From positions 8,820,501 to 8,884,500 of the forward strand of contig NZ_CP107799.1 in the NCBI RefSeq assembly GCF_041431135.1: DNA of 64,000 bases. Direction: 5' to 3'. The translations under genes were made by a program, and so were the position numbers. The notes under the pieces are model-generated. The model was not told the DNA's origin and searched no databases. It saw only the letters and a program-made list of their open reading frames with translations. Below are positions 49,054 to 51,629 of this stretch, piece after piece. The stretch comes from Streptomyces sp. NBC_00554. Lineage in GTDB: Bacteria > Actinomycetota > Actinomycetes > Streptomycetales > Streptomycetaceae. Position 1 is the stretch's first letter, and each line of letters starts with the position of its first letter.

Positions 49054-50211
49054 TCAGACGGTGGCGGCCGGCGGGATCCACCGGTGGGTGCGGGGTGCAG
49101 CGCTGGAGATGCCGTAGTCCTTCTTGAGGGTTTCGGGGATCGCGTAGTGCATGACGCGTCCACGGGTGAGGGATGACAGCTCGAGGACCGTGGTGAGGTG
49201 GCCGAGGCGGTCCAGGGCCCAGGCGCCGAGCGGGGAGCGGTCCTCAATGGTCTCCAGGACGCCGAGGACGTGGGGTACGGCCCTGACGACGGTGTCCCAC
49301 GATGTGCGCGGGACGTGGAGCCAGTCGGCGCAGGTGTCGCCGATGAGGTGGCGGATGAGGGTGGAGACGATCGGGTCGAAGAAGGTGCCGGGCACCACCT
49401 CCTCGTAGAGGTCGATCAGCTGCCGGGTCAGATGCGTGCCCTCCTCGGAGGGCCCCATGTGCCGGACCATGTACAGGTCGAGGAACCCGCGCGCCTCGTC
49501 GAGAGTTCGGGGGACGGCGTCCTGGTCGACGCCCAGCATGGCGCCGACGACGCGCCACGCGTAGTAGTACGCTTCCGCGCCCTCGGCCGACATGTGAATC
49601 CCGAGGCGGTGCAGGCTGTCCAGGACGAGCAGGGAGAAGAACATCTGCCCGCCGATCATGTCCTCCTGGCAGATCGGCGTTCCGTGGGTCGCGGCGTCCC
49701 AGCGGTTTTCGCGGGTGAGGTGGTGGCGGATGGAGGCGTGCAGGAGGCGGACCTTCTGGGCGGCGGGGATGAAGCGGCTGCCGGCCTCGAAGGCGTCGGG
49801 CTGCATCAGATGGACGGTGAACTGGCCGGTCTCCGCCATCCGTTTGGACGGGTACTTCAGGCCATGGGTGGCCGACAGCAGCTTCGCCACGTGCGGGACG
49901 AGGTAGCAGGCGGGCATGGCGGCGAAGGACAGCGCGGTGGAGATGTGCACGTTGTTGTCGATGAAGAACAGCCGGGCCTTCTCCATCTCCGCCCAGTCCA
50001 CCCAGGCCGGCGGCGTGCCGGTGGCTTCCAGGTACTCGCGCGCGACATCGGGCAGTCCGTCCGGGAGGGGAGCGCCGGCGGTGGAGACGTAGCGCATCAG
50101 GGTGTTGAATTTTCCCACCTCCCCCCGTTCGAAAAGCTCGGCGACGGTGGCATCGGCGAGTTCGTCGCCGGCCTGCCGCAGGGCGTCCATCGATGCGTCG
50201 GTGTAGGTCAT
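49054..50211 (-). CDS. DUF2236 (MpaB / latex-clearing protein family) oxygenase
   Basis: 385 residues. Follows the Lcp/MpaB pattern: AEMEKARLFFIDNNVHISTAL, KVRLLHASIRHHL (His in this block or just after is the expected haem ligand, with conserved Arg), GTPICQEDMIGGQMFFSLLVL, then AYYYAWRVVGAMLGV. Lcp cleaves rubber (cis-polyisoprene) with O2; MpaB cleaves a farnesyl chain. Unlike Lcp it has no Tat signal, so it works inside the cell. GAGGA lies before ATG 50211. Third gene behind the polyprenyl synthase, which suggests a prenyl substrate. Confidence 0.83.
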   Translation of the reverse strand: MTYTDASMDALRQAGDELADATVAELFERGEVGKFNTLMRYVSTAGAPLPDGLPDVAREYLEATGTPPAWVDWAEMEKARLFFIDNNVHISTALSFAAMPACYLVPHVAKLLSATHGLKYPSKRMAETGQFTVHLMQPDAFEAGSRFIPAAQKVRLLHASIRHHLTRENRWDAATHGTPICQEDMIGGQMFFSLLVLDSLHRLGIHMSAEGAEAYYYAWRVVGAMLGVDQDAVPRTLDEARGFLDLYMVRHMGPSEEGTHLTRQLIDLYEEVVPGTFFDPIVSTLIRHLIGDTCADWLHVPRTSWDTVVRAVPHVLGVLETIEDRSPLGAWALDRLGHLTTVLELSSLTRGRVMHYAIPETLKKDYGISSAAPRTHRWIPPAATV

Positions 50212-50305
50212 GGCAGGGTTCCTCGTCTTCCTCGGGATCGTCCACGACAGGCGGGAGGGGCGGCGGACCGGAACGACACGAGCCCGTGCCACTCCGATGC
50301 GAGGG

Positions 50306-51361
50306 TCAGGACAGGCGTACCGCCGCGGAATGCGCCAGCGCGGTCAGTCCGCCGGCGGCGTGCGCCGGGAGATCCAACTCATGGAGGGCGTCAAGAGCCT
50401 CCTCGACCCGCGCTCCGATCATGTCCTCGATGCGGTCGGGCGCCCTCAGCCGGCGCATCACCTCGCGGACCGCGTCCAGCCCCTCCCCGACCAGGTCGTC
50501 CCGGCCCAGCAGGGAGTTCAACAGTTCGCGCTCCGCGTCGTCGGCGAGACGCCAAGTCTCTGCCAGCAGGGCCGTGGGTCGGCGACCGCGCACATCGTCG
50601 GCATTGGCCTTGCCGGTGTGCTCCGGGTCTCCGAACAGCCCGAGTAGATCGTCCCGGAGCTGGAACGCCTCGCCCAGTGGCAGCCCGTACGCGGAGTAGC
50701 CCTCGCGCAGCCGCGCGCCCGCCCCGGCCAGCGCACCACCGATCAACAGAGGCTGTTCGACGGTGTACTTGGCGGTCTTGTACCGGATCACCTTCAACGA
50801 CGCCTCGGTGTCCGGGCCGACTCCGGTCCGCAGGATCTCCAGACACTCGCCCGCGATGAGCTCACGGGCCATCACCGCCCACAACGGGCGGGCCCGGGCG
50901 AGATACGCGGCGGGCAGACCGCTGGTGGCGAACAACTGCCCGGCCAGCGCCATCAGCAGATCCCCCACCAGCATCGCCAACGACCGCGCGGCGGCATCGG
51001 CGTCCGGACGAGCCCCTACGGCCCCGCGCAGGGCGACGTGGGTCGTGGGTCGCCCATGCCGCAGCGGACTGTCGTCGATGAGGTCGTCGTGCACAACCGC
51101 TGCGGCGTGCACCAGCTCCATGGAGGCCGCCGCCCGCACCAGCGCGTCGCTGTCCGGTTGTCCCACCGCACGCCAGCCCCAGTAGCAGAACGCCGCCCGC
51201 AGCCGCTTGCCGTCCGCGACCGCCGCCTCCAGCCTCTCGGCCACCGTGCCGAGCATCGGATCGATTGCCGCGAACTCGTCGGCCTCCCGGGCGACGAACC
51301 GGCACAGCACCTCGTCCACGCGGGCCTTGAACGCGGCCCACTCCCACCGGTCAGACTTCAC
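50306..51361 (-). CDS. polyprenyl diphosphate synthase (GGPP-type)
   Basis: 351 residues. First Asp motif HDDLID (Asp92, Asp93, Asp96), GKRLRAAF for IPP binding (51-58), and second motif RDDLLGLFGD (Asp237, Asp238). Small residues ahead of the first motif (AAAVV) allow chains longer than C15, so geranylgeranyl or longer diphosphate is expected. The GTG at 51361 lies inside the last 11 bases of the small upstream gene, so they are coupled. Followed after 94 bases by the DUF2236 oxygenase. No terpene cyclase is present in the window. Confidence 0.92.
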   Translation of the reverse strand: MKSDRWEWAAFKARVDEVLCRFVAREADEFAAIDPMLGTVAERLEAAVADGKRLRAAFCYWGWRAVGQPDSDALVRAAASMELVHAAAVVHDDLIDDSPLRHGRPTTHVALRGAVGARPDADAAARSLAMLVGDLLMALAGQLFATSGLPAAYLARARPLWAVMARELIAGECLEILRTGVGPDTEASLKVIRYKTAKYTVEQPLLIGGALAGAGARLREGYSAYGLPLGEAFQLRDDLLGLFGDPEHTGKANADDVRGRRPTALLAETWRLADDAERELLNSLLGRDDLVGEGLDAVREVMRRLRAPDRIEDMIGARVEEALDALHELDLPAHAAGGLTALAHSAAVRLS

Positions 51362-51629
51362 CGGCGGCCTTCCGAGCCAGGGCGCGCCGGGCGAGGATCT
51401 CCAAGTGGGCCGGGGGCACGTCCGCGTACCGGTCCAGCACCAGGCGCCCACGCGCCACGAGCTCGTTCTCGGCCTCCGCCGCCAACTCCGCGGCGTCCGA
51501 CCGGCGTAGCAGCCCACGCACCGTCCCCAAGGCCGAACCCACCGTGCTCACCGCCAGATCGGCCAGCCCGACAGCCACCAACAGCGTCTGTCCGTCCAAG
51601 CCCCCGCGCCGTCCCGCTTCTTGCGTCAA
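51351..51629 (-). CDS. 92-residue helical protein coupled to the prenyl synthase
   Basis: Starts at TTG 51629 with GGGGGAGA five bases upstream. A weakly hydrophobic first half (TLLVAVGLADLAVSTVGSALGTV) may lie on the membrane; the second half is charged helix (AAELAAEAENELVARGRLVLDRY, PAHLEILARRALARKA). Overlaps the prenyl synthase start by 11 bases, and its own start overlaps the stop of a gene remnant by TTGA. Function unknown; possibly a partner of the synthase. Confidence 0.68.
   Translation of the reverse strand: MTQEAGRRGGLDGQTLLVAVGLADLAVSTVGSALGTVRGLLRRSDAAELAAEAENELVARGRLVLDRYADVPPAHLEILARRALARKAAGEV

Follow-up and report, generated by a model that had tools for sequence, protein, structure and literature searches.

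A recurrent three-gene unit of Streptomyces that pairs a predicted polyprenyl diphosphate synthase with a leaderless Lcp-type oxygenase-like protein

We analysed a 64,000-nt stretch of DNA from Streptomyces sp. NBC_00554 (NZ_CP107799.1, 8,820,501-8,884,500, forward strand; the whole stretch is called the window, and its positions serve as coordinates), which contains three adjacent genes that an initial annotation, made from the letters of the DNA, had read as an operon for the synthesis and oxidative cutting of a prenyl chain inside the cell. The three open reading frames (ORFs) lie where that annotation had placed them, in the order small protein, synthase and oxygenase-like protein:

51351..51629, minus strand: small protein gene, 92 aa, TTG start, stop included; no known family
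50306..51361, minus strand: trans-polyprenyl diphosphate synthase, 351 aa from GTG; PF00348; DDLID and DDLLG motifs
49054..50211, minus strand: Lcp/MpaB-type haem-oxygenase-like protein, leaderless, 385 aa; PF09995 (former DUF2236)

Pfam searches assign PF00348 to the synthase (E=6e-40, 137 bits vs a cut-off of 27) and PF09995 (MPAB_Lcp_cat) to the oxygenase-like protein (E=1.4e-17, 65 bits vs a cut-off of 23). The small protein has no Pfam match, and neither it nor the oxygenase matches any NCBIfam family. The synthase GTG at 51361 sits 11 nt inside the small gene, and over 34 loci with all three genes a script places this junction between a 23-nt overlap and a 2-nt gap, which suggests translational coupling of the two genes. 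The spacing between synthase and oxygenase is 94 nt. The ATG start of the oxygenase agrees with orthologue starts, with an alternative GTG at 50292 possible for the ORF; for the small gene, which begins with TTG at 51629 in the window, the script-chosen orthologue starts nearby are ATG or GTG. A promoter scan of the locus, uninformative here, found no sigma-70-type site. We predict that the three genes, hereafter the trio, form an operon and would be transcribed together.

The arrangement is recurrent. A search of 150 related genomes returned 35 full-length oxygenase orthologues (identity of at least 63%, the window's own included), and the trio is complete, with order and strand preserved, at 34 of the 35 loci; at the exception, L104, the contig starts ~55 bases ahead of the oxygenase match. 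The GTDB contig collection contains 282 stretches encoding an oxygenase relative, and among the best 80 of these the trio is present in 79. The remaining one, L152, contains two N bases; its upstream stretch resembles none of those at the other 79 loci, and its downstream stretch matches trio loci. One member of this set, L130, matches at 100% identity and may come from the window genome itself. All 80 are titled Streptomyces except one [Kitasatospora] papulosa. Recurrence at this rate, with differing flanks, leads us to reject chance adjacency of the three genes, as well as the notion, one of two singled out beforehand for checking, that the gene order is unique to this strain, and it bears out the initial annotation in that the genes form a recurrent, tightly spaced unit.

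The small protein was detected in 33 of the 150 related genomes (E up to 1e-4), every one of which also has an oxygenase orthologue. Across Streptomycetaceae, where only the oxygenase was sought (E up to 1e-100), 98 of 394 genomes from 6 of 17 genera gave one match each. A small-protein profile matched six of 396 phylum-wide genomes, all of the window's genus and including the window's own, and the close oxygenase matches in this set fall in the same six. Within the genomes sampled, the unit is seen in just two families, both of the same order. A C-terminal oxygenase fragment with no synthase or small-gene match nearby (L103 9425-9664, G051) is probably a decayed copy.

Purifying selection seems to act on each of the three genes: the median ratios of nonsynonymous to synonymous substitution (dN/dS), taken from 150 of 262 close pairs, are 0.15 for the oxygenase, 0.22 for the synthase and 0.32 for the small protein. 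The small protein diverges fastest (median 0.33), ahead of the synthase (0.23) and the oxygenase (0.14).

Flanking genes were compared over 113 loci: 33 from the relatives, 79 from the database set (L152 among them) and the window, with four duplicates as judged by identical oxygenase DNA. The gene caller, a simple codon-position scorer, recovered the synthase family in 110 of the 113 loci and the small gene in just 70, and other small genes in the flanks could likewise have escaped it. The most widespread flanking family occurs in 9 of the 113 loci. Linking loci by two shared flanking genes gives 67 contexts, and linking them by one gives 23, the largest with 73 loci; in a smaller set of 36 loci the widest flanking family occurs in 8. 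The unit is thus without a recurrent partner gene, and with no flanking family in more than 9 loci the “apocarotenoid-like” route of the initial annotation can be kept as an analogy only. The oxygenase is also encoded on five Streptomyces plasmids in PLSDB, at 75-87% identity, and the trio was seen in three of the five (annotated in the two records inspected, L256 and L257, and found in L187). We predict from this patchy distribution that the trio is a mobile biosynthetic cassette.

Seven loci from the second family of the order (L093, L095-L099 and L104) have a conserved six-gene block downstream of the trio, which by eye encodes a 1000-aa sensor-like protein, proteins of 145 and 195 aa and a branched-chain-type ABC transporter set. 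The whole block is limited to these seven loci and unseen in the others, and a larger conserved cluster around the trio was rejected.

The PDB chains nearest to the synthase are 3lk5 (geranylgeranyl, E=4.5e-46) and 8f8f ((2E,6E)-farnesyl, E=2.8e-44), presumably from Corynebacterium and Mycobacterium. In the first motif, DDLID, the Asp residues are kept in 108/108 unique copies, as is the Arg that follows, and D237 and D238 of the second, DDLLG, are invariant in 20 aligned synthases. Chain length in these enzymes is controlled just before the first Asp motif, where small residues allow products of C20 or longer. Positions -5 and -4 are both Ala in 108/108 copies; the -5 residue is Trp in the farnesyl enzyme 8f8f and Cys in the geranylgeranyl enzyme 3lk5. 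Judged from these residues, the product is most likely an all-trans prenyl diphosphate of C20 or longer, so that the type named in the initial annotation, a geranylgeranyl diphosphate (GGPP) synthase, is compatible with the motifs, as are longer chains. The product is a prediction, since no NCBIfam model reaches its cut-off on the synthase: the GGPP equivalogs NF041003, NF045685 and NF045549 score 89.8 of 500, 58.5 of 460 and 63.8 of 475 bits. The second-best NCBIfam score, 185.6 bits vs a cut-off of 450, belongs to NF041169 (family 2 encapsulin cargo polyprenyl transferase), the match beginning at profile position 45; on this score we rejected the synthase as an encapsulin cargo.

The window genome has eight PF00348 rows at seven places, that is, six besides the trio, so primary metabolism can probably do without the trio synthase. 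The initial annotation had also noted that no cyclase is present. This holds for class I terpene synthases, of which there is none near the trio (the nearest PF19086 match in the window genome is ~616 kb away; other cyclase families were not searched).

The AlphaFold2 (AF2) model of the small protein has three helices and low confidence (predicted local distance difference test (pLDDT) score 70.4, predicted template modelling (pTM) score 0.31). Its first helix is hydrophobic, with a 19-residue Kyte-Doolittle mean of 1.92 over residues 16-34 in the window protein; over orthologues the best value has a median of 1.79 and a range of -0.12 to 2.08, the low end of which includes cut-short starts. 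A role in docking or as a subunit may be envisaged. Two RefSeq plasmids name this protein “polyprenyl synthetase” (L256 10538-10822 and L257 10615-10899), a label that no Pfam or NCBIfam model supports and that is perhaps carried over from the neighbouring gene.

LcpK30 is the sole PDB match to the oxygenase in a phmmer search with E up to 1 (E ~1e-28; 3e-37 in a profile search). It is also the best structural match to the AF2 model (mean pLDDT 73.8, pTM 0.78), with a template modelling (TM) score of 0.69-0.74 (5o1m: 0.71-0.74), so the predicted fold is Lcp-like, in line with the Lcp-type assignment made earlier. Next comes the t-anethole oxygenase of Stenotrophomonas (8s1j; probability 1.00 but E 0.006, TM 0.44-0.54), which we take to belong to the oxygenase class cited in PMC12724181 as Purwani et al. 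2024.

The haem site is preserved. Oxygenase residues R124, T128, R155, H158 and R162 align with LcpK30 R164, T168, R195, H198 and R202, and equivalents of these five are kept in all 108 unique copies (counted by alignment, in LcpK30 numbering). Because the model is poor at residues 120-129 (pLDDT <50), the assignments of R124, E127 and T128 rest on alignments. Published excerpts give R164 as 98.8%, T168 as 99.6% and H198 as 100% conserved among 495 Lcp homologues (PMC6311187), and in the accessible portions of the LcpK30 study R164A has undetectable and T168A 2% activity (PMC5522427). Loss of a haem ligand, the possibility singled out beforehand for checking, was therefore rejected, as the Arg, Thr and His site residues are all kept, and the trio oxygenase would be expected to bind haem. 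Read by eye, the N-termini of the trio oxygenases have no twin-arginine translocation (Tat) export signal, as the initial annotation had held.

We propose, with a probability of about one half, that the trio is mobile and self-contained and serves the biosynthesis of a linear isoprenoid in oxidised form. In favour of this count the recurrence of the trio, the differing flanks, the plasmid copies, the invariant haem site, the likeness of the model to LcpK30, the first Asp motif of the synthase with the Ala before it, and the correlated distances of the three genes. The synthase would make an all-trans prenyl diphosphate, and the leaderless b-haem enzyme of the Lcp clade would bind this chain, or else a prenyl group derived from it (free or transferred), in an Lcp-like hydrophobic channel and oxidise it with O2. 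The small helical protein would probably dock the synthase or its product at the membrane or to the oxygenase. The likeliest single reaction would be to cut a C=C bond, leaving an aldehyde and a ketone, because those related enzymes found described in print cleave C=C bonds (LcpK30, MpaB, Nro1 as proposed, and the class of Purwani et al. 2024). Cleavage might take place at the chain end, as in MpaB, which according to excerpts of PMC12724181 attacks the terminal dimethylallyl double bond and releases acetone. By this precedent, a geranylgeranyl group cut at its chain end by the trio oxygenase would be predicted to give a C17 omega-aldehyde and acetone.

The fully specified form of this idea is a minimal mobile terpenoid pathway that needs no cyclase, in which the synthase and its coupled small partner pass the new linear chain directly to a cytosolic haem oxygenase of the Lcp clade for a Glu148-independent cut that yields an apo-isoprenoid. 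We consider it a tentative possibility. To our knowledge, a bacterial apo-isoprenoid route that bypasses carotenoids has not been described so far.

A different fate of the chain is conceivable, if rather unlikely: GGPP might feed an enzyme encoded at another place in the genome, either a terpene synthase or a prenyltransferase, with the oxygenase trimming or oxidising the product of that enzyme, like MpaB after MpaA in fungi. The substrate of MpaB is a farnesylated aromatic and not free farnesyl diphosphate (FPP), as far as the accessible text of PMC11934065 and PMC12724181 goes, and the window genome offers candidates elsewhere in the form of five PF19086 matches in four ORFs and the six further PF00348 places. 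However, since no flanking family exceeds 9 of 113 loci, the partner would have to be unlinked and yet available across many hosts and for the plasmid copies.

The self-contained unit is in doubt chiefly because Glu148 is lost and because the pathway is read from genes, from which we infer the co-transcription, haem binding, chain length, substrate, reaction and small-protein role. Several observations count against the proposal. Window residues V108, E127 and G188 stand at LcpK30 E148, K167 and T230. Over the 108 copies the E148 position is V in 104, L in 2, M in 1 and I in 1, the K167 position is E in 93, A in 9 and N in 6, and the T230 position is Gly in 108/108. Glu148 lies in the channel of LcpK30, is its proposed catalytic base and is hydrogen-bonded to T230, and LcpK30 activity drops to ~20% in E148A, 5% in E148Q and 2% in E148H, and to 20% in K167A (accessible portions of PMC5522427). 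We also examined 19 distant homologues from 16 fetched loci, with leaders judged by eye (of the own-genome paralogues, L129, with Ile/Arg/Asp/Thr/His at 148/164/167/168/198, was excluded, and for L126 and L127 the automatic ORF pick was in the wrong frame). All 12 Tat-bearing homologues have Glu148, Lys167 and Thr230, which places the trio family outside the secreted rubber-oxygenase signature; the seven leaderless ones have G, P, A or L at 148, and five of them keep Thr230. Judged by its sequence, the trio protein is a leaderless branch in which the haem site is kept and the secreted-oxygenase signature is gone. The small protein occurs at none of the 16 distant loci and a synthase match at two, ~4 and ~6 kb off, so the partnership appears confined to the trio subfamily. 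Finally, the pairwise distances of the three genes correlate at 0.90-0.94 (with 0/500 permutations as high), which favours the proposal, though part of this correlation comes from common descent.

An older synthase-oxygenase partnership was considered on two distant loci, which have other gene arrangements and of which one has a degenerate haem site. L248 7758-8891 (G019) encodes a PF09995 protein with Gly and Ala at the LcpK30 R164 and T168 positions; its neighbours include a terpene synthase (PF19086) at ~4 kb, a polyprenyl synthase at ~6 kb and a phage-type integrase at ~7 kb. L255 4012-9316 (G029) encodes a leaderless-looking PF09995 protein with G, Q and S at the E148, K167 and T168 sites; a polyprenyl synthase lies ~3.5 kb away, separated from it by an amine-oxidase-family gene, and the two may be another synthase-oxygenase pairing. 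In two Streptomyces genomes there is a tandem pair of Tat-bearing Lcp-type genes (L249 8151-10460 and L251 8019-10233).

With the proposed base replaced in every copy, chain cutting as first claimed went further than the residues show, and it is natural to ask whether the Lcp-like protein oxidises a linear prenyl chain by hydroxylation, epoxidation or desaturation without cleaving it, a reading that differs from our proposal in the reaction only. It draws on the absence of the residue thought to start cleavage and on the accompanying changes at Thr230 and Lys167 in 108/108 copies, and the seven leaderless distant homologues likewise lack Glu148, though five keep Thr230. We regard it as unlikely. 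The other haem-site residues are invariant, and a missing Glu148 is compatible with cleavage because LcpK30 E148A, at its ~20% activity, yields the same products as the unmutated enzyme, so that the glutamate is not strictly needed; Lys167 is the distal ligand in 59% of 495 Lcps and hence not strictly defining either (both from the accessible portions of PMC5522427).

It is very improbable that the haem protein is no enzyme at all and acts as a gas or redox sensor or as a lipid-binding regulator of the synthase: LcpK30 has a globin fold (in the same portions of PMC5522427) and residues important in it are lost in the trio, but the equivalents of R164 and T168, which LcpK30 requires for activity, are invariant in 108/108 copies. 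Least probable of all is a unit, tied to rubber use, that degrades or salvages oligo-isoprenoids taken up from outside, since for all its Lcp fold and haem site the protein is leaderless, a synthase gene lies alongside in 34/35 and 79/80 loci, and no flanking family recurs widely (flanks were not annotated for degradation genes).

If the proposal of a self-contained unit is correct, Streptomyces use three genes to make a type of linear oxidised isoprenoid that has gone unrecognised, and in bacteria Lcp-type haem enzymes take part in biosynthesis besides attacking polymers. The oxygenase occurs in a quarter of the sampled Streptomycetaceae species, and the open-licence literature contains, among the matches listed, no paper on the pairing of a synthase with an Lcp-type oxygenase (subscription papers are mostly outside its coverage). 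The trio is also a natural test of an Lcp-type mechanism without a Glu148-type base, and is small enough for heterologous expression. The earlier interpretation is partly supported: it is plausible and one step too specific.

Among known systems, LcpK30 (5o1l/5o1m) is closest to the trio oxygenase in predicted fold, in sequence relationship and in its R164/T168/H198 site with the structural R195 and R202. The trio protein differs in having no Tat leader (by eye), in the replacement of Glu148, Lys167 and Thr230, and in adjoining a synthase and a small protein. The t-anethole oxygenase (8s1j) resembles it structurally and is more distant than LcpK30.

Nro1, a nitrile rubber oxygenase, is also more distant than LcpK30. 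According to the available portions of PMC12724181 it belongs to the MpaB family, has a predicted structure similar to that of LcpK30 and is proposed to cleave C=C bonds, and the abstract denies similarity to Lcps; it is membrane bound and has Asp at the LcpK30 Glu148 position and Lys at K167. With Nro1 reported from this family, the earlier statement, which had DUF2236 enzymes of known activity cutting isoprenoid chains, is drawn too narrowly. MpaB, from mycophenolic acid biosynthesis, is the namesake of the Pfam family and likewise cleaves a prenyl chain oxidatively in a biosynthetic route. It differs in being bound to the endoplasmic reticulum and in acting on an aromatic that carries the chain (portions of PMC11934065). 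The “MpaB” of daptide biosynthesis was dropped as a further DUF2236 activity, as the accessible text of PMC10036551 describes it as RRE-containing, with no tie to DUF2236.

On the synthase side, 3lk5 and 8f8f are the best PDB relatives and differ in their Cys and Trp at the -5 position, which is Ala in the trio, and the likeness in score to the family 2 encapsulin cargo polyprenyl transferase (NF041169) lies far below the cut-off. Taken together, we regard the trio as presenting a known kind of enzyme in variant form, within a gene arrangement that recurs.

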